Source: a virus
Virus record (IMG/VR): IMGVR_UViG_3300009093_000035
Span: 62,001 to 126,000 of that record
DNA: 64,000 nt
Reading direction: 5' to 3' (one strand)
Shown here one piece after another: positions 14,155 through 64,000 of this stretch (the first letter of the stretch is position 1; every line of letters starts with the position of its first letter). The notes under the pieces were generated by a model. It ran no database searches. It worked only from the letters and a program-made list of their open reading frames with translations, and had not been told where the DNA came from. The translations under genes and the position numbers were made by a program.

Positions 14155-17100
14155 GCGTCGTCACTCTCCCCGGAGTCACTCCGGATTCTCGGAGAACACG
14201 CTTCACGACGTCGAAGACTCGGCGTTCGTCGCCGCCGTAGATGTGGAAGTTGTTGTTGATCGTACCGCCCCCAGCTCCGGCCCGGTCGAGCGCTCCGCCT
14301 TCCTTCGAACCCACGAGCACGTCAGCTGAATCGATCGGAGTGATCGACCCTCGGACTCCCCCGCCGCGGTAGATGAAGTCGTTGACTTCCGGAGCGATGT
14401 CAGGGGACGTCCCAGCTTCGGACCCTGTGTCCATCGGGAAGCGGTGGGCGCGACCCGCCGTCGCCGCCCCACGAGCGCCAGGCATGATACCCAGATTCGC
14501 CAAAGACCCTGCCAGAGCCGAGCCCTCTTCGAACCCGCCAGATCCGGAGATCGCCGCCTGTAGCTCAGGGGTCAACGTCCCGGTCTGGAAGTACGTGTCG
14601 AGAGCCTCGCTCGCTTTCTCCGGGTCGAGGCCCGAAGCGAAGGCGAGAGAAGCGAACTGCTGCTTCACCTGTGCGGCTACGATCGCATCCGGAAGGTCGG
14701 ACTTCGCGATCATGTCGCCGACCTTTCGGTCCTTCGTCATGATCTTCGTGAGGTGCTTGTTCGCCTCGTCGCCGATCGTCTCCATCGTCGAGCGGGTTTC
14801 CGCGTGCTCGTCCCGGGTAACCGCCGACGAAGCGTCCAAGGTCTTCACGATCGGATCCGTCACGAGAGCCGCCTGCTCTTCCGTCGCCGCCGTTACGGCC
14901 TGACCTCCGCCGCCGCCCCCGCCTCCGAGACGGGCCCGCGCGCGCTCCTCGACACGACGGGCGGCCTCCGAGCCGCTCAACGTGTAGGACTGAGTCGTGG
15001 TCGTAGCCGCCGCGTCGGCAGCGTCGAGACCCGAGCGACCCATGGCCGCCCCGGACATATGACCCCCACCCGCAACCGTCTTCGTTCCGGTGAGGCCCGA
15101 ATAGTCTCCGGACGAGAGCTTCCGGAGTTCGGTGGAGACCTCCGACATGATCGCCCGAGACTCCTCCGCCGTCCGACGGGCCGAAGCCAACTGAGCGGTT
15201 TCCTCCGGGGAAAGAGTCCCCTGAGCCTCTTTCGTCGAAAGCTGGGAGATCGTCCGACTCGCCTGAGACCCCGAGTCCATCGCCCGCCGTGAGGTATCCT
15301 GAAGAGCGCCTCGGGCGGAGATCGCGGCCTGACGAGCTTCAGAGCCTCCTCCGAGACCCAACGTCTTCGAGAGCCAGGTGATCAGGGGTTGGCCCACGTC
15401 TTCGTAGAGACCTCGGACGTAGAAGAGGATCTTGTTCTCCAGGATGTCGGCGATCGTCGTCGTCGCGTCGAACGCATCGTATGCGAGACTCATCGCCTCG
15501 TCCCGAGCCTCAGTGACTTGGGTGTCTCCCCGTTCGATCGTCGCCGTGAGGAGATCCATCGACGAGGTGACGGCCGCTCCATTCTGATCCGCGATCTCGC
15601 CGTTCTTCGTGATGTGAGCCCCGAAGCGCTGATCCTGTTCCTTCTGAAGGGCTTCCAGTTCGGCGGCCGTGGCGGGAGGATGCTGAGCAGACGTCTGGAG
15701 CAGCCGGTAGCTTCCCTCGGAAGCTCGGGCGAGAGCCTGGTACTGCTCGATCTGAGCCCCAGACATGCCCGTGATCTGCTCCGCAGCCATGCGGTCGATA
15801 CCCGTGAGCTCATCGAGAGGACGGCCAAGGATAGCCATCGCACTCTGGAGCTTCATCGCAATCGTAGCTCCGGGGTCGAGGCCCGACATAGCGTCAGCCA
15901 TGTCCGCCATCTCTCCGGTCGTACCCCGAGCGACGGTCGTGAGCTGATCCAACTGGCGACCAAGAGAAGAGACGGTCTTGTCGGTCGAACTCTCGAACGC
16001 GGCAGTGATGACCTCCTGGTCGCTTCGGGAAAGGTTGGCCAGCTCCTTCACCAGCGTCTGACCCGAAGTATCCTCGCGAGCCGCCTTCGAAATCGACACG
16101 CCAGACTGACCGGCCATCTGAATCGCGCGGTCGATCTCACCCTGATTCATCGTCTGAGAGAGGTCTTGAAGGAAGCTGCTCGCCTGGCGCTGGGCGCTCC
16201 GGTCGATCACGTTCTTCGTACGACCCTGACCGGTCGTCATGATCGCTCGGTAACGATCGGACGTCGAGACGTCCTTGTACCCGCCGGCCGCGCCTCCGAT
16301 CACCTCAGCAGCCTGCTTCTCACCCAACGTCTTCGTCATCTTGATGAGAAGGTCCGCCGTCTGGTCGAGATGGGTGTTGAGGGACGCCTGCCCCGCGGAC
16401 GCCTGAGTGATCAAGGAGTAGAAACGACGGGTCGAGAAGCCCGCGTCCGTTGCCTGCTTCGCGACGAGAGCGAACTGACCGGTCACGTTCTCCAAGCTGA
16501 AAGCGAGCGTGTCCGTGTACTCTGCGAGAGTCCCCGCGAACTCCGAGACCCCGACGCCGAGAGACTTCGCTACGGAGACCGTCGAACGCATCGCGACCTG
16601 GAGTCGGTTCTCCGCGTCCGCCGCGTCTACTGCGCCCTTCGTGAAGCGACCGAGCGAGTAACCGCCCGCGTCGAATGCATCGAAGACCCCGAGGGCCTCC
16701 TGTTCGGTCAGGCCGAGAGTCGCGGTGAGGTCCTGAACAGAGTGGCGGATCACCTTCAGGTTGTCGTCGAGCGTGGGCATCCCCACGTTCATGACGCTTC
16801 GAGTTCCGAACGTGTTGATGACGCTCTTGTTGAACTCCTTCACCTCCTTGTCCATCTCGAACAGGACCGCCCCGAGGGCTCCCGCTAGGATGACCAGAGG
16901 TCCGAGAACCGTAAGGGCCGCCCCGAGGCCAGTAGCGAGAACGCCCATGGCTCCACCAACCGCTCCGAGACCCTTCGCCATCTCGGCGAGGTTTCCGATC
17001 CCCTTCCCGAGGCCTGCCGATCCTCCTGACAGCATCTCTCCGATGTTGATGTTCTGGAGACCGGAGCGAAGGTTCGTGATGCTTCCTTCGAGGCGTTCGT

Positions 17101-21952: not shown

Positions 21953-24900
21953 TCAGGAGGGGTTCTGGACAGAGACGCGGAACGTCATCTGGATGTAGAG
22001 CAGCGGGAAGACCGGGACGTAGAAGGCGTTCACGAGAACCGCCGTCGGATCTTCCGGGTCGGTCGCCACGGTGATACCCGTGAAGCTCGTGATGATCTGT
22101 TCCTGGACCGCTCGCTTGAACATCTCGGAGAGACGTCCCTCGATCTGGCCGAGGATCTGCGGGAGGAACTTGACACCGATGAACGGGTCGAGTTCCGCTC
22201 GCGCGCGCTTCTGCATGTCGTCGGCGATCTGGATGACCGTCGGGATCCTCGACAGGATGTTCGACATGTCCGACGTGAGGCCGTGTCGGATCCGGAGGAA
22301 GGGAAGACGCTCCTCCAGGACCGTGACGCCGCGCTGAGCGACCTGGTTGGCCTGGACCGCGTCGAGACGCCGCGCGAGAGCCGTGAAGCCCGAGAGCTGG
22401 CGACCCGTCCACGGCGTGGCCGAGTCGATCGAGGGCGAGGTCGTGCTCGCCGCGACCGCAGCCGCGAGGTAGCGACCGTCCGAGAGGTACTGCTTCGAGT
22501 TCCCCAGGGCGTCGGTCAGCGAGAAGGTGACGATGTCCGGGTAGATGAACCGGACGCGGCTCGCGCCGGTCGCCTGAGCGATCGTCCCGGCCTGGATCGG
22601 CTGGGTGCCCGAGGCGTAGCCGAAGATCGCCGTCCGCTCCGCACGGTAGCGGATCGAGGACTGGACGTCGCAGTGGATGGCCGTCTGCTTCGCGAGGTTC
22701 GCCGTCGCCGGGGTGAGGAGGACGATCACGGTCGGGGAGATGTTCCCCGGCAGAGAATCGCCTTCGAGCGCCCGGAGAGCGTCGAGGTACGTCTGCTCGC
22801 TCGCCTGGGACGATCCCGGGGTCTTCTTGACCTGGTAGGTCGCGATCACCGAGGAACCGTTCAGGAACGAGAAGTAGGCCGCGAGGGAGAGCGGGTTGTC
22901 GGGGCTGACGTCACCGTACTCCGCCACGACGTCCGAGAGACGCGAGAAGAACTTCGGGGTGAAGTCCTGCTTCTCGAAGTTGTAGCTGACGTAGTAGACC
23001 GTTCCGATCGAGGGCTCGTCGCCCGTCTTCTTGAAGGTCTCGACGAAGGCCGAGTCGCCCACGACCACGCCGTTCGTGTTCGTGACGATCAGCTCGATAC
23101 CCGGGACCGCGAGGGTCGGGATGTTGCCGTCGGTGGTGAAGGTCTTGCTCGACCGGAAGGTGAGCGTCGCGAGGGCGCCAACCGGGTACGGGATCCCGCC
23201 GTCGCGCGGAAGGATCGTGAAGACCAATCCCGTCACGTCGTCGTAGTAGGTCTGACCCACCACGCCGTCCTGACCGACGCCGTTGTTGAAGACCGAGGTG
23301 TTGGCCGAACCCGAGCCCGAGGTCGGATCCGACGAGGTCACGAAGAACCCGTCGATCGCCGCCTCGCCCGAAGCCCCGTCCGCCGACGTGATCAGGAGCA
23401 TCGTCCCGGTCACGAGAGCGTTGTGGGACGTGGCGTCGGCGAAGTCGATCGAGGAACCGACTCCGAGCGTCTGGCTCTGGAAGTAGAGGTAGACGTTGTT
23501 CGTCGAGTCCTTCTGGATACCGGCGAGAGCGCGGCCCGCGAAGTAGTTCACGTCCGGGGTCGCGAAGGCGGTCATGAAGGTCACGAAGGCGCCAGACGCC
23601 CCCGCGTGGTTCATGAGCACCGAGCCCATCTGGAGCGCCGAGACCGACGTCGGAGCCGCCGAGCTGTCGGGGGTGAACCCGAGGGTGTCGTTCGCGCTTC
23701 CCGATCCGATCACGAGGGTCGAAGCCGGACCGACTCCGCCACCGGTGAGGCGAATCGAAGCGCCTTCCTGAAGGACTCCGACCGTCGCGGAAAGACCCGC
23801 CGCCACGATCGCGGCGTTGATCTGGCCGAGGACCGAGCCCGCGACCGTGACCGGCCCGAGAGCCGTATCCGTCCCGGGACCCGAGGCCGCGAAGACGCAG
23901 GTCACGAGACCGCCGCCCGCCGTGAAGGTCAGGACGTTGTTCGCGGGGTTGCTCGGATCCGACCCGTCGAAGAAGGTGACGTTCGGCTGACCGTCACGGC
24001 TGTCGCCGAACGTCGCCGCAGCGACCTGACCGCCCGACCAGCCCGTGAGGGCGAGAAGGGTGGGGGCCTTCACGTTCGCGCCGTAGGCCGCTTCCGCCGT
24101 GACTCCGTTGAGGAGACCGGACTTCACCGCGCCGGTTCCACCCTGGAGGGTGATTCCGGCCTGGGCGAGAGCGGAGTTGAAGGCGATCGAGTTCCCGCCG
24201 ATGAAGAGGCGGTTCCGGAGGATGATCCGGTCGTAGGGGAGGCGACCTGCCGTCGTCGTCACCGTGTAGCGACGAGCGATCGGGCCGTTGTAGACCTTGA
24301 CCTGGTCGCCGTTCGTCGCAGCGGCCGTCGAGAGACCGGCCAGGATCGCGAAGTCGCGAGCCGGAGTGGCGTTCGTGATGAACTCCAGGTAACCCGCAGC
24401 GTCGGCGCCCGCGAGCGTCGCCCCAGACCACGTCGCACCCGTGACGGTCGTCGTCGTGGTGATCGAGTTCGAGCCGAGGCCCTGGCTCTTCGCCGTGACT
24501 CGCATCGTCGTACCGGGGCCCTGAGCCGCCGAGACGACGGGGTTGAGCGTGGTCGAAGCCGCGTAGGTCGAGCCAGCGCCCGTTCCGAGGTTGATGGCGT
24601 TGATCAGGTTCGTGATCGAGGCCGCCGTCGACCCGCCGATCAGGACGTGTCCGTCCACGTCGGTGAGGACGGTCTGGAAGGTGTAGACCTTTCCGTTGAT
24701 GGTGACGGTCTGGGTATCCGTCGGCTGACCCGTGAAGGTCAGGAGACCCGTCGACCGAGCGATCGTGAGGGTGAACCGGATCTGACCCGAGGCGAGAGCC
24801 GAAGCCGTCACCGACCCGAGGAGACCGCCCGTGGCGTTGATCGTGGCCAGCTGGGTGTTGAGCTGGGCGACGAGAGCGCCTACCGAGGCGTAGGTGCCGG

Positions 24901-27259
24901 GGGTGAGGGTGACCGTCTGGATACCCGACGCGCCGGACACGCTTCCCGTGTAGTGGAGAGAGAGGCGGTCGTACTCGTTCGCCGCGACGGTGTACGCGGT
25001 GAACTGACCCGCTCCGTCGTAGCGGGACTCGTGACCCGCCGTGAGAACCGCCGCGTTGATCGCGGAGACCCAGGTAGCCGCCGTCGCCGATCCGACGGTT
25101 CCCGTCGAGACCGAGACCGGGACGCCGTCCACGACCATGTTGATCGTGTCGTCGACTCCGGAGGTGAGGCCGTAGGTGGTCTCACCCGTCGCCGGGTCGT
25201 ACTTGATCTCTTCGCCGAGAAGCGAGGCGAACGCGCCGGCTCGATTCCCGCCCGTCGGAGACGAGAGGTCGATACCAGCCGCGATACCCGTCTGGGCCGG
25301 AAGCCCGTCGATCGTGAGACGGAGGGCGTCGGAGATGTTGTCGATCGTGTAGTACGGCTGCGGGCCGAGGTTGGTGAACCGGGCCGGGGTCTCGTCGCTT
25401 CGAGCGAACTCGACCGTGACGGTCTCCTCGACGGGGACGCCGCCTTCGATCCGCGCGTCCGGGAAGAACTCCGAACCCGAGGGGAAGTTGATCTGGACCG
25501 TCGTGAGGTCAGAGCCCTTCCCCGTGAGGAACACGTCGAATAGCGAGGCTCCTGACCCGTTCACGAGGGAGTAGGTTCCGATCCCGCCCGCGCCCGCCGT
25601 CACGTTCGTGAGCGTGTAGGCGTGGCTCGAACCGATGTTCGCCTGGTCGACGAGGGTGTTGTAGTAGAAGGTCGCGTAGACCGAGGCGCCTTCCGGCACC
25701 GGGGACTTCAGCGTGATCGAGGAAGTCGTGTCGTCGACCTTCAGGACCGTGACCACCCCGCGAGCGAGAGCGTCCTGGACGCCGAAGCCCCAGTAAGCCT
25801 TGATCAGGTCCGGACGGGTCGTCGCGAGATCCGAACGGCCGTTCGAGACCGTGAGGAAGAGCGACTCACCGAGCGGGTTGCCGCGACCGTTGCCCGTCGT
25901 GGGCTGGAACGGAAGCTGGAAGACCGTCCGACTCTCGACCGCGACCGGGCCGGTGTTGTCCACCGTCGGGGTGCAGGAGGCCATGAAGACCTGGTTGTCG
26001 ACGAGCGTCGCCTGGATCTGGGACGTACCGAGCGTCACTCCGCCTTCGGTGTGGGTCGCGGGGGAAACGAGCGCCGCCGTACCCCAGACGATCACGTCAT
26101 CCTTCAGGACGTACGAGACGCCCTGGACGAAGGTGCCGGCCGTCGACCCGTCGGGGGTGAGACCAACCTGGGTGATCGCCGTGACGCCGATGTTGGCGAG
26201 GTAGTCGAACGTGTCCTGCCAGGTGTTGAAGTAGTAGCGGATCTTCACCGTCGAGGTCTTCGCCGGAGCGAAGGGGAGCGTCACGGCGCGAGCCGTTCCG
26301 TTCACAGCGCTCGGGATGACCTGGACTCCGTCCACCGTGACGACCACGTCCGCCGGGTTCGTCGTCGTGAGACCGCCGCCGTTCCCGTCCACGATCGGGC
26401 CGTTGAACACGTAGAAGGTACGGTTCCGCGACGTCGAGGCGTTCGGCACGAAGCCGAGCGTCGTATTCGCCGTCCCCGTTCCGATCACGATCGACTGGTC
26501 CGCCGAGAGGCGGAGGCAGACCTGACCGAGGTTGTTCACGAAGGTCGAAGCGACCAGCGAGCCGATCCCCGCAGTCCCGTTGATCGTGGCCGCCACGACC
26601 GCCGCCGACACGGACGGGGCCGACGAGGGCATCGTGACCGTGACGAAGGAGAGCCCGTCCACCGAGAAGGTGAACTGGTCGTTCGCGCCGAGGATGAAGG
26701 CGAAGTTCTGGCCGGCCTGGCCATCGATCACGGCCGCGTCCGAGGAGACCTGGTCCGAGACGTCGTCCGTCGTCAGGGTGTCGGTCCGGTCGAAGAAGTA
26801 GGTGCAGCGGACCGAGTCCGTCGGAAGCGGCGCCTCCGCGATCTCGACGATCCCCTTCGCCGCGTCGAGTCCGAGGACCACGACCGGGAAGTTGTTGATC
26901 AGGACCGAGACCGAACTCGTGTCGGTCGCGAGCGTCCCCGTCCCGTCGCCCGAAACGAGCGGAAGGTTGCGGACCTGGAACTTCGTGATCGTCCCGTCGA
27001 AGTCACCGAGGGTGACCAGGCCGCTCGGGGAAACGTTGAGAACCGCCCTTCCCGACTCGTCCTCTTCCGTGACCTGCTGGTCGATCGTCGAGGACGAGCC
27101 TCGGACCACCGGCAAGTTCTGACGAGACAGGATCTCCGTACCCGTTCCGACGAGAACGGTGATACGGGCGGGGACAGGCACCGGTGTGTTCGGGACCCCG
27201 AAGAACGTCTGGGTGTAGACGCCCGGGGGTGCATATCCGCCACGAAGAAGACTCGGCAT
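21953..27259 (-). CDS. Giant contractile tail sheath protein (1768 aa)
   Basis: The N-terminus GGYAPPGVYTQTFFG and the last about 360 residues match the two halves of phage tail sheath proteins, including the segment from FETFKKTGDE through NLAKQTAIHCDVQSS to LLYIQMTFRVSVQNPS. Sheaths are usually about 400-700 residues. Here more than 1,000 residues of beta-rich material separate the two ends. One inserted domain near residues 845-950 (VTINGKVYTFQ, then ITNLINAINLGTGAG) is of a type seen in phage fibre and head decoration proteins. I start at ATG 27259, which has AGGAG upstream, rather than the in-frame TTG ten codons earlier. The insertion would project from the tail surface. Confidence 0.82.
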   Translation of the reverse strand: MPSLLRGGYAPPGVYTQTFFGVPNTPVPVPARITVLVGTGTEILSRQNLPVVRGSSSTIDQQVTEEDESGRAVLNVSPSGLVTLGDFDGTITKFQVRNLPLVSGDGTGTLATDTSSVSVLINNFPVVVLGLDAAKGIVEIAEAPLPTDSVRCTYFFDRTDTLTTDDVSDQVSSDAAVIDGQAGQNFAFILGANDQFTFSVDGLSFVTVTMPSSAPSVSAAVVAATINGTAGIGSLVASTFVNNLGQVCLRLSADQSIVIGTGTANTTLGFVPNASTSRNRTFYVFNGPIVDGNGGGLTTTNPADVVVTVDGVQVIPSAVNGTARAVTLPFAPAKTSTVKIRYYFNTWQDTFDYLANIGVTAITQVGLTPDGSTAGTFVQGVSYVLKDDVIVWGTAALVSPATHTEGGVTLGTSQIQATLVDNQVFMASCTPTVDNTGPVAVESRTVFQLPFQPTTGNGRGNPLGESLFLTVSNGRSDLATTRPDLIKAYWGFGVQDALARGVVTVLKVDDTTSSITLKSPVPEGASVYATFYYNTLVDQANIGSSHAYTLTNVTAGAGGIGTYSLVNGSGASLFDVFLTGKGSDLTTVQINFPSGSEFFPDARIEGGVPVEETVTVEFARSDETPARFTNLGPQPYYTIDNISDALRLTIDGLPAQTGIAAGIDLSSPTGGNRAGAFASLLGEEIKYDPATGETTYGLTSGVDDTINMVVDGVPVSVSTGTVGSATAATWVSAINAAVLTAGHESRYDGAGQFTAYTVAANEYDRLSLHYTGSVSGASGIQTVTLTPGTYASVGALVAQLNTQLATINATGGLLGSVTASALASGQIRFTLTIARSTGLLTFTGQPTDTQTVTINGKVYTFQTVLTDVDGHVLIGGSTAASITNLINAINLGTGAGSTYAASTTLNPVVSAAQGPGTTMRVTAKSQGLGSNSITTTTTVTGATWSGATLAGADAAGYLEFITNATPARDFAILAGLSTAAATNGDQVKVYNGPIARRYTVTTTAGRLPYDRIILRNRLFIGGNSIAFNSALAQAGITLQGGTGAVKSGLLNGVTAEAAYGANVKAPTLLALTGWSGGQVAAATFGDSRDGQPNVTFFDGSDPSNPANNVLTFTAGGGLVTCVFAASGPGTDTALGPVTVAGSVLGQINAAIVAAGLSATVGVLQEGASIRLTGGGVGPASTLVIGSGSANDTLGFTPDSSAAPTSVSALQMGSVLMNHAGASGAFVTFMTAFATPDVNYFAGRALAGIQKDSTNNVYLYFQSQTLGVGSSIDFADATSHNALVTGTMLLITSADGASGEAAIDGFFVTSSDPTSGSGSANTSVFNNGVGQDGVVGQTYYDDVTGLVFTILPRDGGIPYPVGALATLTFRSSKTFTTDGNIPTLAVPGIELIVTNTNGVVVGDSAFVETFKKTGDEPSIGTVYYVSYNFEKQDFTPKFFSRLSDVVAEYGDVSPDNPLSLAAYFSFLNGSSVIATYQVKKTPGSSQASEQTYLDALRALEGDSLPGNISPTVIVLLTPATANLAKQTAIHCDVQSSIRYRAERTAIFGYASGTQPIQAGTIAQATGASRVRFIYPDIVTFSLTDALGNSKQYLSDGRYLAAAVAASTTSPSIDSATPWTGRQLSGFTALARRLDAVQANQVAQRGVTVLEERLPFLRIRHGLTSDMSNILSRIPTVIQIADDMQKRARAELDPFIGVKFLPQILGQIEGRLSEMFKRAVQEQIITSFTGITVATDPEDPTAVLVNAFYVPVFPLLYIQMTFRVSVQNPS

Positions 27260-27278
27260 GGTTCTCGCGCTCCTGAGT

Positions 27279-27295
27279 CTCGGGTTCAAACCGAG
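27279..27295 (-). promoter_or_regulatory. Leader hairpin upstream of sheath gene
   Basis: CTCGG (27279-27283) and CCGAG (27291-27295) form a five-pair stem with a seven-base loop. It is upstream of the AGGAG site of the sheath gene. It could shape translation of this highly expressed structural gene. There is no T-run, so it is not an obvious terminator. Confidence 0.4.
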
Positions 27296-27923: not shown

Positions 27924-29042
27924 TCATTTGATCTCTTCGAAGTCAGCCTTGCCGACGAACCAAGGATCTCGGAAGGGACTGAGGGCCAGATCCTTCGGAA
28001 CGTTCTTGATGCTCTCCTGGTAGGAGAAGATCCGAGAGACGATTGGGACGAAGAGGAACCAATCCGATTGGACTGTAACGGACATTGACGACCCGTAGAA
28101 GTAGTCGTCCCCGTTCTCGTCGTAGATCTCCTCGGTCTCTCCGCCCATGGAGACGTCCTGGATGTCGATCCCCTCTTCGATCAGATTCGGCCGAAGGATC
28201 GCCCAGAGGAACATGGCCGTACTGTCCGAGATCTCCGCCTGAGAGTTCACGTCCCGAGCGACGATGTCGATGTCGACCCCCAACTCCCACTTCCCGCCGT
28301 ACTCCAGGTACGCGGGCTCCCGGATCGCCGAGACGAGGATCGCCCAGCGATCTCCCTTCTTGTATCGATGCCCGAAGACCATGGTGACGCCCGGGATCGC
28401 CTTGTTCATCCCCGAGCGAGGGAGAACCTTCCAGGGTCCTGTGCTAACCCCCGCCGTCCGATAGTCGGCCGAGAGAGCCATGTTGTTTGCCAACGGCGTG
28501 TTAAGGAAGATCGTGGTCTGATCACTCCCCACCACGTAGTCGACCCCTGGCTTCAGTTCGCGGGCGCTGGGCAGCTCGTAGATCCGAAGACTCCCCTCGT
28601 AAGGGACGGCCTGGATCGAACCTTCCGAGTTCGTGGTCATCGTCACCCGCTCGTCTCGAACGTCGAGAAGAGGGTCGATGTAGAACTCATCCTCCGAAGT
28701 CATCTCGCAGTAGTAGACGCCCGGAGCTACGGGGAAGCGTCCCCCGTTGTCCTGGATCGCGATCGCATCCTCTCGAACCCACTCGACCGAAAGGCCCGGG
28801 TACCCGGGGATTCGGGCGAGGGTCACGTACGAGGCGACCGTACCCATGAAGTTGTCCGGAGAGAACTGAACCTTCGTCGCCTGTCCGGTCTTCAGGATGA
28901 TGCCGAACTGTGGGCGCTCTTCGAAGCTGTACTTGCCCTGGATGTTATCTACCAGGTCCTGATACTTCGGGTCGAGAGACCAGAAGGCTCGGAGTTCCTT
29001 GATGAACCGCCTGCGAGTCGCTTCGGTGAGATGGAAGTACAA
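27924..29042 (-). CDS. Probable tail/neck structural protein (372 aa)
   Basis: A mixed beta protein without enzyme motifs, located immediately upstream of the zinc ribbon and sheath. The start is a TTG at 29040-29042; a GGGAGG ribosome site lies five bases upstream and no other start is in reach. The sequence contains extended strands (VEWVREDAIAIQDNGG, YELGVDIDIVAR-like) and ends in VGKADFEEIK. The position fits a tail terminator or neck protein, but this is by location only. Confidence 0.5.
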   Translation of the reverse strand: MYFHLTEATRRRFIKELRAFWSLDPKYQDLVDNIQGKYSFEERPQFGIILKTGQATKVQFSPDNFMGTVASYVTLARIPGYPGLSVEWVREDAIAIQDNGGRFPVAPGVYYCEMTSEDEFYIDPLLDVRDERVTMTTNSEGSIQAVPYEGSLRIYELPSARELKPGVDYVVGSDQTTIFLNTPLANNMALSADYRTAGVSTGPWKVLPRSGMNKAIPGVTMVFGHRYKKGDRWAILVSAIREPAYLEYGGKWELGVDIDIVARDVNSQAEISDSTAMFLWAILRPNLIEEGIDIQDVSMGGETEEIYDENGDDYFYGSSMSVTVQSDWFLFVPIVSRIFSYQESIKNVPKDLALSPFRDPWFVGKADFEEIK

Positions 29043-33201: not shown

Positions 33202-34683
33202 TCAGCCGTTCGGAAGGACCGGCAGGCCCTTCTTCGGCTTCGCCGGAACCGGAGGCGAGTAGACCCCGATCTTGAAGTCAGGCATACGGAGCGCCTTCGC
33301 AGAGCCGTACAACTCCGAGCCGCACCGCGCCTTCCCCGGCTCTTCCTTGTTGTCATCCGAACAGGAGAGACAACCCGTCGGCGGGCACTCCTCGACCTCG
33401 GTGAACGGAGCGCCCGGGGTCTTCCGAGTGAACATCGGAACGCGATGCCCATGGCACTGGTCGGCGGTTAGGAACTCCTTCCCGATCGATACGCCGGTCT
33501 TGTTGATAACCTCTCCCGCCTCATTCCGGACCATCTTGTACTCGTAGCACGTCGCGTACGTGAGACCGAGTCGCTTCGCCGCCGCCTGATAGAGACGATG
33601 ACCGACGATCCGATACTCCTCGGCGATCGTCTTCTGGCCCCCGATGTTCTCCGTGAACAGGCTCTCGAAGACCTTCCCGCGCTCGTCCCCGAAGCGAGAC
33701 TGAATACGCTTCACCATCGCCGGAGCCCAAGAGTAACCGGCCTCGACGAACTTCACGATGACGTGGTCGGCCCCGGCCGCCCTCAGCATCTCGAAGATCT
33801 CGATCACACCCGTATGGTCCACGACACCGGGAAGGATCGGATTGACCTGGATGGAGACGTAGATTCCGCGCTTCTTCAGCTCGCGGATGTCGTCCATGTG
33901 CTCTTCGAGAGAAGCCGCCCCCGGAGAGAGCTTCTTCCAATCCTTCGGGTTCGCCGTGTTGATCGACTTCTGGGCGTAGCTGTACGGGTTCTTCTGGAGC
34001 ATATCGATCGCCCAGCCCGGATACCGGAGACGCGAAAGGAAGAAGATCGGAAGACCCGCGTCCACGAACGCCTGAGCGCCATGCTGGGTGTTGTGGTAGT
34101 AGTTCTCCAAGGGGAGGAACGGATCCGTGAAGCTGGAGAAGTAGCCGGCCGCCGAGGTCTGCATCTTCCCCAGGGCCTTCTTAACCTGGTCCCCGTAGCC
34201 CATCGGGACGCTCACGAGCCCGGAGCCTCGGTAGCCCTTGAAACCGGAGTTGATGTAGCAGAAGGCGCAGCCCACCGTACAGAAGCCTCCGTACGGCTGG
34301 GTGAGGATCGCGTCCGTGAAGCACGGACGGTCTCGAACCCCCTTCGGTTCGGTCTTCGCCTTGTACCAACCCTGGAGCGGGCGCATCGCGTCGATACGGA
34401 TGTGTGGGATCGGATCGAGGAAGACCTGAAGGACGTGCTTGTCTTCGTCCTTCGCGCCCCGGACCATCCCGATCCTCATCTTCCGGGACCGTAGGCCAGT
34501 CTCGGGCTCGACCTCGATGTCCCCCGCTACGTCCTTCGGCTCGGGACGCATGAAGAAGTCGTAGGCCTTCCTAGTGCTCTCCGCGACCCCGCCGGTAGCC
34601 AGCGCCACCTCGTCGGCGACCGCCTCTTCAGGGGTCTCTTCGTCGGCGTTGTTCTCATCCAGCCACGTCAGGATCTGGTCCAT
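33202..34683 (-). CDS. Radical SAM enzyme (493 aa)
   Basis: GGFCTVGCAFCYIN gives C135-x3-C139-x2-C142, the ligands of the 4Fe-4S cluster of radical S-adenosylmethionine enzymes. A TIM-barrel pattern follows (SFTDPFLPLE, FFLSRL, YVSIQVNP, DHVIVKFVEAGYSW), closest in style to spore-photoproduct-lyase-like members. A C-terminal cluster, ECPPTGCLSC and ARCG, could hold a second metal site. ATG 34683 has TAGGAG upstream. It directly follows a gene of the amino acid:DNA transferase family, so a step in thymidine hypermodification is a reasonable inference. DNA repair of the photolyase type is the main alternative. Confidence 0.8.
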   Translation of the reverse strand: MDQILTWLDENNADEETPEEAVADEVALATGGVAESTRKAYDFFMRPEPKDVAGDIEVEPETGLRSRKMRIGMVRGAKDEDKHVLQVFLDPIPHIRIDAMRPLQGWYKAKTEPKGVRDRPCFTDAILTQPYGGFCTVGCAFCYINSGFKGYRGSGLVSVPMGYGDQVKKALGKMQTSAAGYFSSFTDPFLPLENYYHNTQHGAQAFVDAGLPIFFLSRLRYPGWAIDMLQKNPYSYAQKSINTANPKDWKKLSPGAASLEEHMDDIRELKKRGIYVSIQVNPILPGVVDHTGVIEIFEMLRAAGADHVIVKFVEAGYSWAPAMVKRIQSRFGDERGKVFESLFTENIGGQKTIAEEYRIVGHRLYQAAAKRLGLTYATCYEYKMVRNEAGEVINKTGVSIGKEFLTADQCHGHRVPMFTRKTPGAPFTEVEECPPTGCLSCSDDNKEEPGKARCGSELYGSAKALRMPDFKIGVYSPPVPAKPKKGLPVLPNG

Positions 34684-34718
34684 CGAGTTCTCCTAGAGCG
34701 ACACCACGAATAGGGCCT

Positions 34719-35657
34719 TCATTGACCACACAGAAACACACGACCTTCGTCTCGGTAGATGGTCTTATGACCTTGACGTACCCCGGTCCAGTCGTTGAAC
34801 TCCCCCAACCACTCTTTGGGGAAGACTCGCGCTCGCGCTTTCCAGAAGGGGGACGTCTCGACCACATCACTCTGAAACGGAATTCCAGCTTGTCGAGCCG
34901 GAAGATGGGTCATCTGAAGATCGATGTCATGACCACAATAGTAGTGGCCCTTGCACAGAGAGTTGAAGTCGCACAAGGCCGTCTCCAACTGATCGAGCCC
35001 GGAGAAGGCTACCCCGGCCGTCCGAGAATCTTCGAGGAGAGCCCTCTGGAGCGAGAGATTTGTCGCGCACTCTTTCCAGGACTGTCCGGTGAGACGAACC
35101 ATCCCAGGGATCGGACCCGCGGTCTCCGACCCACCTCCGACCCCTAGGTCTGAGGCCGTGATCGGAAAGTCGTGGACGTGAGCGAGTAGGTCTGCGAGCT
35201 TGTACGAGGACCAGGGACCCGCGTGGGGGATCTTCTGGAACCCCTCGCGAAGCGAGTCCCACCCTTCCGGTCCGCCGGCCTTCGTCAGCCCTTCCAACCA
35301 AGAGGAGAGGTTCCCTCCCGAGGCCTCCAGAACCTTCTCCAGATGAGCCAGAGATAGGAGGTTGCCACGGAAACCTCAACGCTCTGTCCCCGTGGAGAGT
35401 CCTTGAACCTTCTCAGGAGACGGCAACGCCGGGTCTGGGTACAAGTCCCAAACCCGGCTCGCCGAGCCCAAAGAGTACCACGTCACGTAGAGGAGCGTCC
35501 GCCAGAGAGACCTCTCTTTGTCGAGGCCTTCGGCTTGGTAGATCTCCTTCAGCAGCGGGTACGTCGGATCGAGATCTCCTGAGGAGAGCTGGCCGTTCGC
35601 GAAGATACAGAAATCCGCGAAGAGCTGCTTCGCCTCAGGAGCTATCGCTTCCGTCAT
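34719..35657 (-). pseudogene. Amino acid:DNA transferase-family gene split by in-frame TGA
   Basis: Two open stretches in one frame, 35376-35657 (93 aa) and the remainder to 34719, are separated only by TGA at 35376-35378. Read through, they give one protein of about 312 residues. Its features are FADFCIFANGQLSSGDLDP and LLYVTWYSLGSA in the first part, then GPWSSYKLADLL (about 146) and LETALCDFNSLCKGHYY plus CGHDID (about 222-250). These match the family first named alpha-glutamyl/putrescinyl thymine pyrophosphorylase, now known to include amino acid:DNA transferases that build hypermodified thymine. The context ER-stop-GFRG suggests an Arg CGA changed to TGA. It may be a dead gene, a readthrough product, or two subunits if the second half restarts internally. 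Confidence 0.65.
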
Positions 35658-38199: not shown

Positions 38200-38679
38200 T
38201 CAGCGAGACTTCTTCTTCAAGTAGTCGGAAGCGCCCTTTGCCGTGAGCTTCGCGTTCTCCGCTACTTCCTTCGCGGCCTCCTGAATCAAGTTCTCGATAT
38301 CCGAGACCTTCTCGTCGGCGTCCAACAAGGTGTCGACGACCTCTTGAGCCTTCTTCGAGTTCATGTCCGCGAGAGCTTCCATCATGTCGCCATACAGCTC
38401 ATCGAGTTCCCCCTGGCCGACCTCGGCGGTCTTCCCAAGAAGCGGAAGGATCTCCGAACGGATCTCCGGCTTCTCGTGAGCGAGACGAATCAGGGATCGG
38501 CGAAGAGAGGAATGCTTGTTCACTTGGATAGCCCGTTCTTGGTTCTCGGCTTTGTCTTTGGAGGGATGGCGTCCCAACAGCCGGTCCCCGTCGCTCGTGT
38601 AGAGACACCACTTCTGCTCGTCGGCGGGACGGTCGTCCTGATCGGAGGGACGACACTCATGGATGACCGCCTTCTTCAT
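38200..38679 (-). CDS. Composite protein with internal IRLAH tag (159 aa)
   Basis: Residues 22-56 (KWCLYTSDGDRLLGRHPS, then KDKAENQERAIQVNKH) are a small domain widespread in phage proteins, with a WxLYxxxGxxLLG strand pair and a QERAIQVxKH helix. It is joined directly to the shared tag LRRSLIRLAHEKPEIR, SEILPLLGKTA (residues 59-85). The final 75 residues are helical (ELYGDMMEALADMNSKKAQE). Here the tag is not N-terminal. It begins a run of four tagged genes. Confidence 0.6.
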   Translation of the reverse strand: MKKAVIHECRPSDQDDRPADEQKWCLYTSDGDRLLGRHPSKDKAENQERAIQVNKHSSLRRSLIRLAHEKPEIRSEILPLLGKTAEVGQGELDELYGDMMEALADMNSKKAQEVVDTLLDADEKVSDIENLIQEAAKEVAENAKLTAKGASDYLKKKSR

Positions 38680-38682
38680 CGC

Positions 38683-39123
38683 TCAGTCGATGAAGCCGTA
38701 GTCCCGGCCGCGACCGGAATCGTTGGACCAACCCCACCGACCCTCTTCCGGGTCGAAGCCGACGCGACCGATCGACTTGCCGTTCGTGCCGCCGTTCGGA
38801 TGGACGTAGTCCCAAGAAAGAGACCCGCCGAGGCCGCCCTGGGCGTCCGACCACCACTCGATCGAGATCGAGATCTCCGAGAAGAGAGACGAGAAGCCCT
38901 TCGGCACCTCGACCTTGACTGAGTTCTCGTTGAGGTTCGACCACTTCACCGGAGCGTCGATCTTCTTGAGAAGAACGTTGATCGCTTCGAGGGCCTTCTT
39001 CTTCGCCTCGTCGTCGAGCTGAGGAAGCCGACCGGCCTTCTTCTCCAGAAGGGGAAGGATCTCCGAGCGGATCTCGGGGTTCGCGTGGGCGAGACGAATC
39101 AGGGAACGACGGAGGGATGCCAT
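38683..39123 (-). CDS. N-terminally IRLAH-tagged protein (146 aa)
   Basis: MASLRRSLIRLAHANPEIR, SEILPLLEKKA occupies residues 1-29. The remainder is a small alpha/beta domain (DAPVKWSNLNENSVKVEVP; EISISIEWWSDAQGG) of unknown family. The ATG is 39123. The tag is nearly identical to that of the neighbour at 38200, so these two copies may have duplicated recently. If the tag is removed after KKA, the mature protein is about 117 residues. Confidence 0.6.
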   Translation of the reverse strand: MASLRRSLIRLAHANPEIRSEILPLLEKKAGRLPQLDDEAKKKALEAINVLLKKIDAPVKWSNLNENSVKVEVPKGFSSLFSEISISIEWWSDAQGGLGGSLSWDYVHPNGGTNGKSIGRVGFDPEEGRWGWSNDSGRGRDYGFID

Positions 39124-39156
39124 GCCTCCGCCGTTTCAAAGAGAATCCACCGAGGG

Positions 39157-39759
39157 CTACTCCGCGGCGATCCCGTAGAACAAGAAGCCGACCGCCGAGC
39201 CCTGGAGCACGATGTCTCCACGGACCTCCCAAGAGCCGAACCCGAACTTGTCCTTCTCGCCCGTGTCTCGGACACTTCGGATCTTCCCCGGAAGAGCGCC
39301 GCTCGCCCGAGCCCAAGTCCCGAAGGCGGATCGAGCCTCCTCGTCCGAATCGGCTCGAAGCACGACCTTCTTCGCCTTCGTCTCAGCTCGGCCGGAGACG
39401 ACTGGGATCGCAAACGCCGGACCCGACTTCGGGTTGTGTCTCACGTCCTGATTGGCGTAGGTCTTTGCCTCCGCAAGGGTCATGCCCTTCGCCCTGAGGA
39501 CGAACCCCTTCCCGGCCTTCTCCAGGATCGTCCCCGAGTACCCGCCCTCGGAATCGTCGTCACGATACGACCGAACGTCGTTCTCCGCGTCCTGTACGAG
39601 CTTCTCGAAGACCTTCTTCGGATCCGTCCCCTCGCCGTACTCCTGGAACTCGGCGCCGCCTGCGGTCTTCGAGAGGAGCGAAAGAAGTGCCGGTCGTAGC
39701 TCGGGCTTCGAGTGCGCGAGACGGATGAGCTTTCGACGCAGCTTGAGGTCGGGGGTCAC
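39157..39759 (-). CDS. N-terminally IRLAH-tagged protein (200 aa)
   Basis: The start GTG 39757-39759 follows GGAGG. The tag LRRKLIRLAHSKPELR, PALLSLLSKTA covers residues 7-33. The rest is an alpha/beta protein with two similar halves: TLAEAKTYANQDVRHNPKSG and KKVVLRADSDEEARSAFGTW each look like a short strand-helix repeat. No known family. Third in the tandem set of tagged genes. Confidence 0.6.
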   Translation of the reverse strand: MTPDLKLRRKLIRLAHSKPELRPALLSLLSKTAGGAEFQEYGEGTDPKKVFEKLVQDAENDVRSYRDDDSEGGYSGTILEKAGKGFVLRAKGMTLAEAKTYANQDVRHNPKSGPAFAIPVVSGRAETKAKKVVLRADSDEEARSAFGTWARASGALPGKIRSVRDTGEKDKFGFGSWEVRGDIVLQGSAVGFLFYGIAAE

Positions 39760-39793
39760 AGACCTCCGACCTCAAAGGAACTCCACCGAAGGT

Positions 39794-40492
39794 TCAGGGC
39801 TGAGGCGTCGTCGGCTTCTGGAGCCGTTCGGAGACCTCGATGATCTGGTGGGCCGGAATCCAGCGCGTATCCCGCTCCAGAGGCGGGCGAACGTTTCGAC
39901 CAGTGTTCTGGTTCATCGTCCAGAACACCCAGCGAAGACGGTCCTCCTCTTCGCGCGAGCGGAACTTCTCCTTCACGACCCCGACCTTCCCGGTCTTGAA
40001 GTTCACCCCGTTCACGGTCTCTTCGCGAACCGGGCCGTCCTTGTACTGGATCCGAACCTTGTCGCCCGGCTTCAGGTTCAGCTCTTCGAGCTTCTTCCGA
40101 CCCGGCTCCGCAGCGTCGTCCTTCGCGTCCATCCGGTCCTGACGACGGTCGAGAAGCTCGGCCTTCTCCTTCTCGGTCTTCGCCTTGTCGGCCTTTCCGA
40201 CGTAGCGGATCACCTTCGCGTTCGCGTCGTAGCGGGAACCCTTCGCGGGGAAGCGAAGGTCCCCCGCCGACGAAGAGAGCAGAAGTTCGGCGTTCCCGGT
40301 TCGCTTCGTCGTGACGCTGACGATCGTAGCGGGAATCCAACCCTTCCGCGTCTGGACTTCGACGGAGTCCCCTTCGTGGAAGTACCCGTCCGAAGGCGCA
40401 GCTTCCTTCAAGATCGGGATGAGGTGCTCGCGAAGCTCGGGCTTCTCGTGAGCGAGACGGATCGTCTTCGAGCGGAGTTCGTCGTCGTTCAT
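39794..40492 (-). CDS. N-terminally IRLAH-tagged protein with SH3-like barrels (232 aa)
   Basis: ATG 40492 has AGGAGG upstream. The tag LRSKTIRLAHEKPELR, EHLIPILKEAA is at residues 5-32. It is followed by a small barrel (DSVEVQTRKGWIPATIVSVT) and a second one (PGDKVRIQYKDGPVREETVN), each resembling KOW/SH3-like folds that bind nucleic acid or protein. The end is Arg/Pro-rich. First gene of the four-gene tagged run in transcription order. Confidence 0.6.
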   Translation of the reverse strand: MNDDELRSKTIRLAHEKPELREHLIPILKEAAPSDGYFHEGDSVEVQTRKGWIPATIVSVTTKRTGNAELLLSSSAGDLRFPAKGSRYDANAKVIRYVGKADKAKTEKEKAELLDRRQDRMDAKDDAAEPGRKKLEELNLKPGDKVRIQYKDGPVREETVNGVNFKTGKVGVVKEKFRSREEEDRLRWVFWTMNQNTGRNVRPPLERDTRWIPAHQIIEVSERLQKPTTPQP

Positions 40493-43324: not shown

Positions 43325-43543
43325 CTATTCGTTCAGGAAGATCCGGATGGAGCACCGAGGACACCCGACGTACTTCCGGTCTGACGAGACCATGTAGAAG
43401 GGATCCTCTTCGGTATGGATCTCCGAACGACCGAAGGTGAACTCGGCCTTACATCGACCGCAGGTCGCCCGACCGATCTGAAGCTCCCCGCAGCGAGAGG
43501 CGCGAGACTGACGACGAGCTTTCCGTTGGGAGCGCCCGCTCAC
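43325..43543 (-). CDS. Small zinc-ribbon protein (72 aa)
   Basis: The GTG start overlaps the TGA of the RNA ligase gene (GTGA), with GGAG just upstream. An Arg/Ser-rich N-terminus is followed by ATCGRCKAEF and VGCPRCSI, two CxxC pairs separated by about 30 residues, forming a zinc ribbon. Coupling to the ligase gene suggests a nucleic-acid-related job. Confidence 0.6.
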   Translation of the reverse strand: MSGRSQRKARRQSRASRCGELQIGRATCGRCKAEFTFGRSEIHTEEDPFYMVSSDRKYVGCPRCSIRIFLNE

Positions 43544-44658
43544 GCCTTCTCCAGGTACCGATTCCCGACGAGCTTCAAGATCACGCGGCCCAACTGAGGG
43601 TCGATCCGCTCGACCTCGGGTTTGACCACGACGCCTTCGGCGTAGTGGGGCTTGAATTTTCCCCCGCTGAGGACACTGTCGGCTTCAGCGAGAGCTTCGA
43701 TCCCCTCGGCGAGGAAAGGTCCGCGATAGACGACAGGAACGCGAGACAGACCGTCCCGACCGTCGCCTCCGAACAGATCCCGAGCGTCCATCCACTTCCG
43801 GTCCCCGAGGTAGACGTCAAAGACGAGGAACGCGGGAAACCCCTGTGGGATCCCGTAGTGCATCTTCTTCGTCGACCGGAAGACCTCGCCGTAGAGGATC
43901 TTGTCTTCGTTTGCTCGGCACCACGTCTCGATCCACGGGTTGGCTCTCAGAGCCGCCCAGAAGACCGACGGGTTCTGGCTCCGGTCCCAGGCCTTCAGGT
44001 CGAGATCTCCGCCCATCTTCCCGGTCCCGGTGTCGATCGTGACGATTCCTGGCTCGACGCTCTCGTCCGGAGGACGCTTCCATTCCGTCCGAGACCCCAC
44101 CCACATCCGACCTCCGCGGAAGGCGTAGCGGGCGCTCTCCCCGTTGATCTTCTCCGTGACGATCACCGGTTCCCCTGGAGTGAAGAGGTCTCGCCACTTC
44201 CTCTTCGTGGCCCTCTCCCCTCCGCGGAAGTTCTCCATGTCGTAGGCGGAGAGATGGGCGAGAGAATCGATCGGACGCTCGCCTTCCTGGCTCTGGATGT
44301 TCGCGTATGGATCGTAGCGGACGATCCCGAGGCGCTCCATGACGTTGTCCCCTTCGGAGACCTTGTCCTTCAACGCCCCGAGCTTCATCAGGAGCCCCTG
44401 GGAGTAGATCCCACGGAACTTCCGGACCTTGATTCGGCGATCGTCGGTCGGTAGGTAGCTCCAGAGAGACGAGAAGGGATGCTCGTTCCCCGGCAAGACG
44501 TAGTCCGGCTCGACGTAGATCGCGAGGTCTCCCGTCGCGAAGTCTTCCGTGCGGACGACGCACGTGTACCCGTCGATCTCGACAAGGCCCAGGGTATCCG
44601 CGGCGGGGTGCTTCTTCACCTCACCGAGTCGAATCACGAAGACGCCGTGGGTACTCAT
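43540..44658 (-). CDS. RNA ligase, DraRnl (Rnl5)-like (372 aa)
   Basis: The N-terminal about 110 residues (VFVIRLGEVKKHPAADTLGL, then GDLAIYVEPDYVLP) match the OB-like domain of Deinococcus-type RNA ligases. The nucleotidyltransferase domain carries motif I EKINGESARY (Lys about 170, adenylated), motif III YGEVFRS (about 256), motif IV AEGVVVKPE (about 341) and motif V ILKLVGNRYL (about 361). It should seal 3'-OH/5'-phosphate ends in RNA. ATG overlaps the upstream TGA and the stop overlaps the next GTG, so it lies inside a tightly coupled operon. Confidence 0.85.
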   Translation of the reverse strand: MSTHGVFVIRLGEVKKHPAADTLGLVEIDGYTCVVRTEDFATGDLAIYVEPDYVLPGNEHPFSSLWSYLPTDDRRIKVRKFRGIYSQGLLMKLGALKDKVSEGDNVMERLGIVRYDPYANIQSQEGERPIDSLAHLSAYDMENFRGGERATKRKWRDLFTPGEPVIVTEKINGESARYAFRGGRMWVGSRTEWKRPPDESVEPGIVTIDTGTGKMGGDLDLKAWDRSQNPSVFWAALRANPWIETWCRANEDKILYGEVFRSTKKMHYGIPQGFPAFLVFDVYLGDRKWMDARDLFGGDGRDGLSRVPVVYRGPFLAEGIEALAEADSVLSGGKFKPHYAEGVVVKPEVERIDPQLGRVILKLVGNRYLEKA

Positions 44659-46836: not shown

Positions 46837-47277
46837 CTACACCTTCTCGTACGCGGGCCACTCGGCGGGCCACTGGTTGAGGAGCGTCTGGATCCTCTCC
46901 AGCTGGAGCTGGATGCTCTCGACCGGGACTCCGTGGGCGTTCCGAGCCGCGAGAACTTCCGGATCGAGTTCGGACCGGAAGACGACGAACTCGACCCGGT
47001 AGCCGTGGCGCTCCGCGAGCTTCACGTAGGGAGTGATCTCGGAGACCGTCTGGTTCGTGTTGTCGAGCACGACGAGAGGGAGGCCCTCCTCGAAGGCGCG
47101 GCGAACCTTCGTAGAGCACATCTGATGGGCGTACCCCAGGAACGCGGGATTGAACTTGTACTCGTCCCCGACCATGAAGAAGTCGTCGGCGGAACAGACG
47201 TACGCGTCCGGGAGAGCGTTACACAGCGTGCTCTTACCCGAGCCGCTCGCGCCGATCAGAATCTTGAAGGTCCTCAT
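46837..47277 (-). CDS. P-loop polynucleotide-kinase-like protein (146 aa)
   Basis: Walker A GASGSGKST at residues 9-17, then SADDFF at about 31-35 and the DNTNQT motif at about 71. This set is typical of the N4BP2/T4-Pnkp-like family of 5'-kinases (AAA_33 type). The length matches a stand-alone kinase domain, and no phosphatase part is fused. With two RNA-ligase-like genes nearby it probably phosphorylates 5'-OH RNA or DNA ends for sealing. A 5-hydroxymethyl-dU DNA kinase role is a less likely alternative. ATG 47277 follows AGAGGA closely. Confidence 0.75.
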   Translation of the reverse strand: MRTFKILIGASGSGKSTLCNALPDAYVCSADDFFMVGDEYKFNPAFLGYAHQMCSTKVRRAFEEGLPLVVLDNTNQTVSEITPYVKLAERHGYRVEFVVFRSELDPEVLAARNAHGVPVESIQLQLERIQTLLNQWPAEWPAYEKV

Positions 47278-48500: not shown

Positions 48501-48844
48501 TGTCGGCCTATCGCGACCCCCCTGGACGTTCCCCGTGTCCGTACCACTGTCGTCAAATAGCAGCGGCCGGATGGGGTGAGGGATGGACCGGGTTGTGGAA
48601 CTGGGAGTGCGTAATGTGTAAGGCGCGCGCTCCCATGTGGAGGTGGATTCTTCTGCCCTTCCTCCCTACCCTCTCTCACATACCGCTGGGACCCGGTCCC
48701 TACCATGTAGTCGACCCGAGACTGACGGAAGCTGAAGCTCTGAGAGTCGGGTGGACGAAAGAACAGATCCAGAAAGAGCGAAAGACGGGCTTACCGAATC
48801 AGCTCGATCGGTGGAAAGAATGGACCTGGGGAGAGCTTCCTTAG
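48500..48844 (+). CDS. Small Cys-pair protein with hydrophobic segment (114 aa)
   Basis: ATG shares its A with the TGA of the ligase gene. Residues 13-40 carry CPYHC and CVMC, a likely zinc site. A hydrophobic stretch (MWRWILLPFLPTLSHI) follows. The C-terminal helix has LTEAEALRVGWTKEQIQKER. It converges on the tagged gene with a four-base overlap. Unknown function. Confidence 0.55.
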   Translation: MSAYRDPPGRSPCPYHCRQIAAAGWGEGWTGLWNWECVMCKARAPMWRWILLPFLPTLSHIPLGPGPYHVVDPRLTEAEALRVGWTKEQIQKERKTGLPNQLDRWKEWTWGELP

Positions 48845-49416
48845 AAGGTCGCCCCGAGCTTCCGTAGGTACGCGAGAAGGCCATCGACCTTCGGATTCGG
48901 TACCTTGCTCTTCTGGATATCGATGAGCTTCCCGATCTGAACCGGGTCCGTCTCCTCGATCGAGATCTCCCCGGTGTCCGAAGCCCGAAGAGTTGCAACG
49001 GGCCTCGGGAGCCTCTCGTTGAAGAACACGAAGAGGAGATCTCCGCCGGCCGGGTCGTGCTTCACGATCACCGGATCTCGGACGTAGAGACCCTTCGCCG
49101 ACCACTGGATGTCGTTCCGAACGTTGGAGATCGCCCGGTAGGCCGGCGACATGAGGAGAGCGAGGTTCGCTTCGAGCTTTGCCTGAAGGAAGTTCGCCGC
49201 TTCGTCGTCTCCGATCTCCCGAAGATGGGGGATCAGGTCGTCCGAAGTGACGAACCCGGTCGAGCGAACCGCCTCGTTGATGCGCTCCTGTAGCTCACCC
49301 GAGAACTCGGCCTTCTTCGAAACCGGCTCCTTCGCTTCCTTCAGGAGCGGTAGGAGGATCGGACGAAGCCCGGGGTTCTCGTGGGCCAGGCGGATCATCT
49401 TCGAACGGAGAGTCAT
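48841..49416 (-). CDS. N-terminally IRLAH-tagged protein (191 aa)
   Basis: MTLRSKMIRLAHENPGLR, PILLPLLKEA occupies residues 1-28. The rest is a small alpha/beta domain (DLIPHLREIGDDEAANFLQA; LLFVFFNERLPRPVATLRAS) that I cannot assign. It is far from the tandem tagged set but has the same tag ending KEA, which supports a common processing or sorting step. Confidence 0.6.
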   Translation of the reverse strand: MTLRSKMIRLAHENPGLRPILLPLLKEAKEPVSKKAEFSGELQERINEAVRSTGFVTSDDLIPHLREIGDDEAANFLQAKLEANLALLMSPAYRAISNVRNDIQWSAKGLYVRDPVIVKHDPAGGDLLFVFFNERLPRPVATLRASDTGEISIEETDPVQIGKLIDIQKSKVPNPKVDGLLAYLRKLGATF

Positions 49417-50531: not shown

Positions 50532-51482
50532 TCAGAGGGCCTTCGAGAAGGTAGAGGAGAAGTCGGAGGCGATCGTTGCGGCTACCGTGGCTACGGCCTT
50601 CTTCGCGGTGAAGACGAGACCCATCTCTCGGTTCGAGGCAAGAGAAGCGTGGGTCAAGTTCTGAGAGCCTACGAACGCAGTCTTCCCGTCTACCACGAAC
50701 GCTTTCGCGTGGATGTAGGGCTTCGTTACGATCCGAACCGGAATCCCGGAAAGCGTCAGTTGATCCGTAGCTGCCTTCCCAGCGGGAGACTCCATCGCAT
50801 CCGACATCACGACGCGAATCGCTACCCCGCGGGCCGCCGCGGACTTCAGGGTCGCGATCGTATTGGCGTCGCTGATCTCCTCGTCCTCCAGATCGATCGT
50901 TTTCTTCGCTCCGGACAGAAGGTCGTGGATGGTCGACTTCGCGTTCAACGGAGAGACCACCAGGGAGCCCGCGTAGGTGGAGATCGGAGTCCCTGCAAAG
51001 TCCCCCTCGAAGACGGCCTCAGCGTCCGCTACGACCTTCGGAAGGGTCGCTACAACCAGGAACTCCCGATTCGACTTCAGCGCCGCCGTAGTGGCGTTCA
51101 TCGTCATGATCCAGGCGGTCTTCCCATCCAGAATCACCGACTTCTGATGGGTGAGAGAGAAGTGGGAAGGGGCCCAGACTACCTTCACCCCAGCAGCTGC
51201 TAGGACGGCGAACTCGTCGTTGTTGTTGTTCGAGAGGCCTGGGTTGAACCTCTGATTGAGGATTACTCGAACGTCGAGCCCGGCCTTCTGGCGATCGATC
51301 AAGGCGTCGATCACGGCCTGAGAAGACAGGAGGTACATCGTCATGTGTACCGAGGTCTTCGCCATCCGAATCGCCTTTACCAGGGCCACGCCAGAGTCCC
51401 CCGGCTCCACTATCACCCGAACGGAACCTCGGGGAATCGAAGCCCTTCGAATCTTCCGGTTTCTGTTCGGGTTGTGGCCCAC
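50532..51482 (-). CDS. Phospholipase D-like protein with two HKD motifs (316 aa)
   Basis: Two HxKx4D motifs are present: HQKSVILD (about residue 111) and HAKAFVVD (about 255), each followed by an Asn-containing loop (MTMN, GSQN). This is the bipartite active site of the PLD superfamily. No signal peptide or membrane anchor is seen, so a nuclease or cytoplasmic phosphodiesterase is as likely as a lipase. The start GTG at 51482 follows AAGGG. Located between the metalloprotease and HU genes. Confidence 0.8.
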   Translation of the reverse strand: MGHNPNRNRKIRRASIPRGSVRVIVEPGDSGVALVKAIRMAKTSVHMTMYLLSSQAVIDALIDRQKAGLDVRVILNQRFNPGLSNNNNDEFAVLAAAGVKVVWAPSHFSLTHQKSVILDGKTAWIMTMNATTAALKSNREFLVVATLPKVVADAEAVFEGDFAGTPISTYAGSLVVSPLNAKSTIHDLLSGAKKTIDLEDEEISDANTIATLKSAAARGVAIRVVMSDAMESPAGKAATDQLTLSGIPVRIVTKPYIHAKAFVVDGKTAFVGSQNLTHASLASNREMGLVFTAKKAVATVAATIASDFSSTFSKAL

Positions 51483-63807: not shown

Positions 63808-63808
63808 C

Positions 63809-64000
63809 TCACTCCACCACGATCACGACGGAAAGATCGCGGACGACGGGGACCGCCCCGTACACCGCGAGCTTCGGCTTCACCTTCTTCAGGAGGGCGC
63901 TGAAATACGCCTCGTGGACTCTCTGGTCGAGGTGGCTGACCTTCTTCTTGTAGGCCCAATCGGTGTACGGGAAAGTGAGGTCGAACCAGTACTGAGCCTG
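63809..64000 (-). CDS. Hypothetical protein, 5' part outside window
   Basis: The last 63 codons of a minus-strand gene are visible, reading YWFDLTFPYTDWAYKKKVSH at the start and ending VPVVRDLSVVIVVE. The TGA is at 63809-63811, just ahead of the next ATG. The tail is helix then two strands; too little is present to assign a function. Confidence 0.5.
   Translation of the reverse strand, partial: QAQYWFDLTFPYTDWAYKKKVSHLDQRVHEAYFSALLKKVKPKLAVYGAVPVVRDLSVVIVVE

Follow-up and report, generated by a model that had tools for sequence, protein, structure and literature searches.

In M6-type phages, synthesis of hydroxymethyl-dU (hmdU) is believed to precede replication, so that it would enter the DNA across the whole genome. 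The later steps of the pathway are glycine transfer, rearrangement by a radical SAM enzyme and decarboxylation by a PLP enzyme, in that order. In Pseudomonas phage M6 the pathway genes include gp51 (amino acid:DNA transferase, ADDT), gp52 (PLP enzyme), gp54 and gp55 (hmdU kinase and its helical partner) and gp58 (thymidylate-synthase homologue). For such phages, phosphorylation of the hmdU in DNA has been reported, followed by its conversion, by additional enzymes, to 5-(2-aminoethyl)dU (PMC6449724). In one actinophage, a TET-ADDT-kinase set has been put forward as a predicted system of thymidine hypermodification (PMC11955845). Among 224 jumbo phages surveyed in 2021, TET/JBP enzymes were reported to be absent (PMC7824862).

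The window analysed here spans 64,000 nucleotides, from position 62001 to 126000, within a virus record of 248,579 bp (G000, approximately 248.6 kb). It contains a radical SAM gene beside an ADDT gene that is interrupted by an in-frame stop codon (Table 1). We consider it rather likely that the two genes are what is left of a thymine-hypermodification cassette once active in ancestors of this jumbo phage, and that the pathway is probably dead.

Table 1. Coordinates of the gene pair, of segment carriers in the window and of cassettes in related records. Positions are those of the window unless another record is named.
Feature	Position	Strand	Description	Basis
M6 gp53-type radical SAM enzyme	33202..34683	(-)	493 aa, intact	gp53 identity, PHROG 9252, relatives
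CTVGCAFC, the CxxxCxxC [4Fe-4S]/SAM motif	34258..34281	(-)		invariant in radical SAM alignment
ADDT/radical SAM junction	34684..34718	(-)	35 bp	plausible ribosome-binding site TAGGAGAACTCG-ATG
ADDT gene, interrupted	34719..35657	(-)		Pfam PF18724, PHROG 6364, relatives
In-frame TGA	35376..35378	(-)	ADDT codon 94 (second Arg of TGTERR)	homologue alignments
Carriers of the 'RRSLIRLAHEKPELRxxLLPLLK'-type segment	21620-21943, 38200-40492, 48841-49416, 62554-64000		last one continues past window end	
G001 (265,895 bp, locus L033)	126848-128044 (TET/JBP) to 132106 (radical SAM)		TET/JBP, P-loop kinase, ADDT, PLP, radical SAM in one row	
G003 (22,204 bp, loci L062, L129)			G001 gene order plus one additional gene ahead of radical SAM	
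G002 (288,255 bp, L040)			thymidylate-synthase homologue (77 bits), kinase, HAD, ADDT, PLP, radical SAM	

The radical SAM and transferase genes

An earlier note on this DNA had placed a radical SAM gene next to an ADDT-type gene and tied the pair to the pathway of phage M6. Both homologies hold, the family assignments were right, and the genes are adjacent, with 35 bp between the ADDT stop and the radical SAM start. The radical SAM enzyme is 60% identical to M6 gp53 and matches PHROG 9252 with 649 bits over residues 30-475, a full-length homology. Its CxxxCxxC cysteines (C135, C139 and C142) are invariant in the alignment, and C-terminal cysteines are also conserved. Identity to the enzymes of jumbo relatives G001 (L033) and G003 (L062) is 72-75%. 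In the radical SAM tree G000 groups with G001, G003 and G002 (support 0.977 for all four, 0.959 for G000 with G001 and G003). Among solved structures no sequence match to the enzyme was found. It is a member of the M6 gp53-type family, and its homology predicts that it rearranges N-glycyl-thymidine to C-glycyl-thymidine. A likeness to spore-photoproduct lyase had raised the prospect of a new product. However, PHROG 9252 is itself named 'DNA repair photolyase' and M6 gp53 falls within it, so the photolyase-like look belongs to the M6 family and is no reason to expect new chemistry. An intein-like insert, approximately 317 aa long and ending in HN before Cys, lies precisely between the F and C of CSVGCAFC in the G003 radical SAM gene (L129:4482-6887).

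For the neighbouring interval, Pfam and PHROG bear out the ADDT-like homology, but the reading frame is not continuous. It matches PHROG 6364 (E=4.6e-22), to which M6 gp51 also belongs, and scores 28.0 bits with Pfam profile PF18724 (cut-off 26.2) when the TGA is read as arginine. The TGA splits the gene into ORFs of 93 aa and 192 aa, the latter from an internal TTG; the C-terminal ORF alone scores 28.1 bits against the same profile and cut-off. Homology picks up in the unchanged frame directly past the TGA, and conserved ADDT residues are kept. Every homologue spanning the site, from jumbo and TET-type relatives at 34-77% identity to distant M6-type proteins, has arginine there as part of an ERR motif. 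In place of an uninterrupted frame with this motif, the G000 gene has TGA for the second Arg. The TGA could have arisen from a CGA codon by a single C-to-T change, and CGA is frequent in the record (815 codons).

TGA is also the commonest stop codon in G000, where it ends 176 of the 277 called genes. Among the tRNA genes of the record, none with the anticodon TCA was detected, and the RNA fold past the TGA is not better than that of shuffled sequence (z -0.56). Recoding or reassignment of TGA was rejected on the first two of these results, and the third gave no hint of a selenocysteine-like signal.

Apart from the stop, the ADDT gene is well kept. It is 56-59% identical to the ADDT of G001 and G003, and it retains 114/134 (85%) of the columns invariant among three relatives, compared with 89% for the radical SAM enzyme. 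Branch lengths for ADDT and radical SAM are 0.46 and 0.27 in G000, 0.32 and 0.10 in G001, and 0.98 and 0.67 in G002. Because most invariant columns are kept and the G000 branch is not disproportionately long, ADDT was probably under constraint until recently. No ADDT relatives were confirmed in bacterial or archaeal genomes. In the ADDT tree G000 is separate from G001 and G003 and lies near TET-type contigs, with weak support, and trees of neighbour genes (window 21953-27289 and 27924-29042) pair it with G003. Together with the radical SAM tree these discordant placements suggest that the cassette may have been exchanged between phages.

Pathway partners in the record and its relatives

It had been proposed that this phage replaces some thymines with an amino-acid-derived base, and a genome-wide search for a thymidylate-synthase homologue and an hmdU kinase was suggested as a check. 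That search was run on the 248.6-kb record and both genes came back negative. Pfam, tblastn and six-frame HMMs from relatives found no thymidylate synthase or dUMP hydroxymethylase in the record; Pfam and the six-frame HMMs found no TET/JBP oxygenase and no HMUDK, HMUDK_hel or P-loop kinase 3; tblastn and the HMMs found no gp52-type PLP enzyme. M6 gp52, gp54, gp55 and gp58 had no tblastn match in G000. In the same runs the HMMs detected each gene in the relatives that carry it. Of a complete M6-type pathway, the hmU source, the hmdU DNA kinase and the PLP enzyme are thus all missing from the record. With a nonsense codon in ADDT besides, the proposed replacement of thymine is not borne out, and the gene content suggests that the phage probably makes no amino-acid-derived thymine.

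Two proteins were considered as substitutes for the missing enzymes. An AlkB-like protein (G000 14249-14827) was dismissed as a replacement hydroxylase on its family. A P-loop protein (window 46837-47277) was rejected as a replacement kinase, as its kinase-family match is weak and it sits among RNA-repair genes. This small P-loop kinase clusters with an RNA ligase (window 43540-44658) and a PLD-family protein (50532-51416), possibly for RNA repair.

Radical SAM genes of this type seldom lack such partners. In IMG/VR, 31 radical SAM loci come with roughly 8 kb of sequence to either side; among these, ADDT was present in 30/31, a thymidylate-synthase homologue in 30/31, a PLP enzyme in 28/31 and a kinase in 28/31. 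Since nearly all of these loci carry the partner genes, the G000 window is an outlier. Close relatives are more complete. G001 and G003 have open ADDT frames and keep TET/JBP, kinase and PLP genes, with TET/JBP assignments of 62.7 and 64.7 bits (cut-off 34.9). In G001, G002 and G003 the PLP gene sits between ADDT and radical SAM. G000 retains ADDT and radical SAM, without the genes located before and between them in these relatives. In a further contig, G004 (18.6 kb, 71% GC), a G003-type P-loop kinase directly follows the radical SAM gene (L131:67-1664).

Gene content, homologies and the stop codon were read directly from the DNA; the chemistry of a full cassette, as seen in the relatives, is a prediction. 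Thymine in DNA would be hydroxylated by TET/JBP, or hydroxymethyl-dUMP would be made by the thymidylate-synthase homologue. The hydroxymethyl group would then be activated by the P-loop kinase, and ADDT would swap the phosphate for an amino acid, which the analogy to M6 suggests is glycine. The radical SAM enzyme would convert the N-linked glycyl-thymine to a C-linked product, which the PLP enzyme would decarboxylate to 5-(2-aminoethyl)dU. In the G000 lineage the oxygenase, kinase and PLP genes would have been lost and ADDT stopped, with radical SAM left intact. Because those three genes are gone and the nonsense codon falls at an invariant Arg, we infer that the pathway is probably inactive; the radical SAM gene is probably still intact because the loss was recent.

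Several other features of the record were observed. Outside the window, 44 tRNA genes and one tmRNA gene are densely arrayed at G000:C1:188442-199553 (L011). A segment like 'RRSLIRLAHEKPELRxxLLPLLK', mostly N-terminal, is common to otherwise different proteins, with ten matches in G000 and four in G001. Five proteins (G000:C1:8068, 33102, 133177, 135586 and 210569) share an N-terminal 'LFxAIGATQxSA' that is absent from G001 and G002. G000:C1:149738-152974 encodes a 1078-aa fusion of a 'Swiss Army Knife' RNA-repair-type HAD domain to a eukaryotic-type topoisomerase I core. A nicotinamide phosphoribosyltransferase gene adjoins a NUDIX gene at G000:C1:127620-129474, a possible NAD-salvage pair.

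Alternatives to loss of the pathway

The alternative that fares best, though we regard it as unlikely, is a real virus whose pathway is intact. Here a mistake in sequencing or assembly, or a variant carried by a minority, would explain the TGA, and the absent genes would lie in an unassembled part. The record is linear and lacks a terminal repeat, so that an absent stretch could hold the other genes. No second copy of the broken site was found in IMG/VR, and no other record of this phage was found. An intact radical SAM gene beside an ADDT gene that keeps nearly as many invariant columns, on a branch that is not accelerated, could also mean a working pathway. However, when 100 regions of G000 were compared with their homologous genes in G001, the closest large relative (31,422 aligned residues), ADDT alone had an internal stop, so general assembly errors are an unlikely cause. 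G000 and G001 have 98 reciprocal best hits, largely colinear across the full record. The core genes missing from G000 are scattered, not clustered, and the two ends of the record correspond to one and the same part of G001. This colinearity suggests that the record is near complete, although few genes define its ends. Furthermore, the partner genes adjoin ADDT and radical SAM in G001 and G003, whereas both flanks of the G000 pair are assembled and occupied by other genes.

We also wondered whether the radical SAM enzyme was retained for a different role, such as DNA-lesion repair, with ADDT alone a relic. The gene is intact and has native codon usage (score 136.8 over 493 codons, versus 14.8 over 285 codons for the two ADDT ORFs), and its family carries the photolyase annotation. 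Yet codon-usage scores are low for the ADDT genes of intact relatives as well, hypermodification genes lie beside nearly every relative of the radical SAM gene, and the enzyme groups with the jumbo cassettes within the M6-type family; a separate subfamily was not seen. Such a second function is very improbable.

Least probable of all is that the TGA is read through, or that ADDT works as a split protein, and that hydroxymethyluracil from the host or a co-infecting phage is converted to undecarboxylated C-glycyl thymine: the unshifted frame, intact downstream homology and conserved residues would fit, but there is neither a suppressor tRNA nor unusual structure past the TGA, the site needs Arg, an amino acid that UGA readthrough does not normally insert, and no kinase is present to activate hydroxymethyluracil.

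Comparison with known systems

On the preferred reading, a recently broken remnant, the G000 pair is like M6 in several respects. Its radical SAM enzyme has the identity to gp53 given above and all the motifs, and its ADDT shares the PHROG of gp51 and adjoins the radical SAM gene. Unlike M6, G000 lacks homologues of gp52 (PLP), gp54/gp55 (kinase) and gp58 (dUMP hydroxymethylase), and its interrupted ADDT is only about 21% identical to gp51. This ADDT is closer to the ADDT of actinophages (33-36%), where it is annotated 'aGPT-Pplase2' and lies between TET/JBP and a kinase in the operons of Phelemich, LittleMunchkin and Tonitrus. The actinophage loci read have no radical SAM or M6-type PLP enzyme annotated beside ADDT, and unlike those operons G000 is without TET/JBP and kinase.

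The G000 neighbourhood is syntenic with G001 (265.9 kb) and G003 (22 kb), and approximately 100 genes are shared with G001. Unlike G000, both relatives retain TET/JBP, kinase, PLP and an open ADDT, and the first two of these they share with the actinophage operons. Their gene set is consistent with a pathway that starts with TET/JBP oxidation of thymine in DNA, thymine being the base that we infer from the neighbour genes. There is about an even chance that the relatives run a hybrid, in which TET/JBP generates hydroxymethyluracil in already synthesized DNA, to be processed into an aminoethyl-type base by M6-type transferase, radical SAM and PLP enzymes, and that G000 is a natural loss-of-pathway mutant. 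A partial literature search found no paper describing TET/JBP together with an M6-type radical SAM enzyme. In G001 (266 kb) TET/JBP lies inside a five-gene cassette, compared with none in the 224 jumbo phages surveyed in 2021 (PMC7824862), which makes the operon of the relatives more interesting than the G000 remnant. A TET/JBP front end would shift modification to after replication, possibly at chosen sites. G000 without its cassette and the related carriers lend themselves to a paired comparison of what the modification does and why it can be dispensed with. The relatives represent a new combination of known parts, and the G000 window holds a broken leftover from a pathway of known kind.
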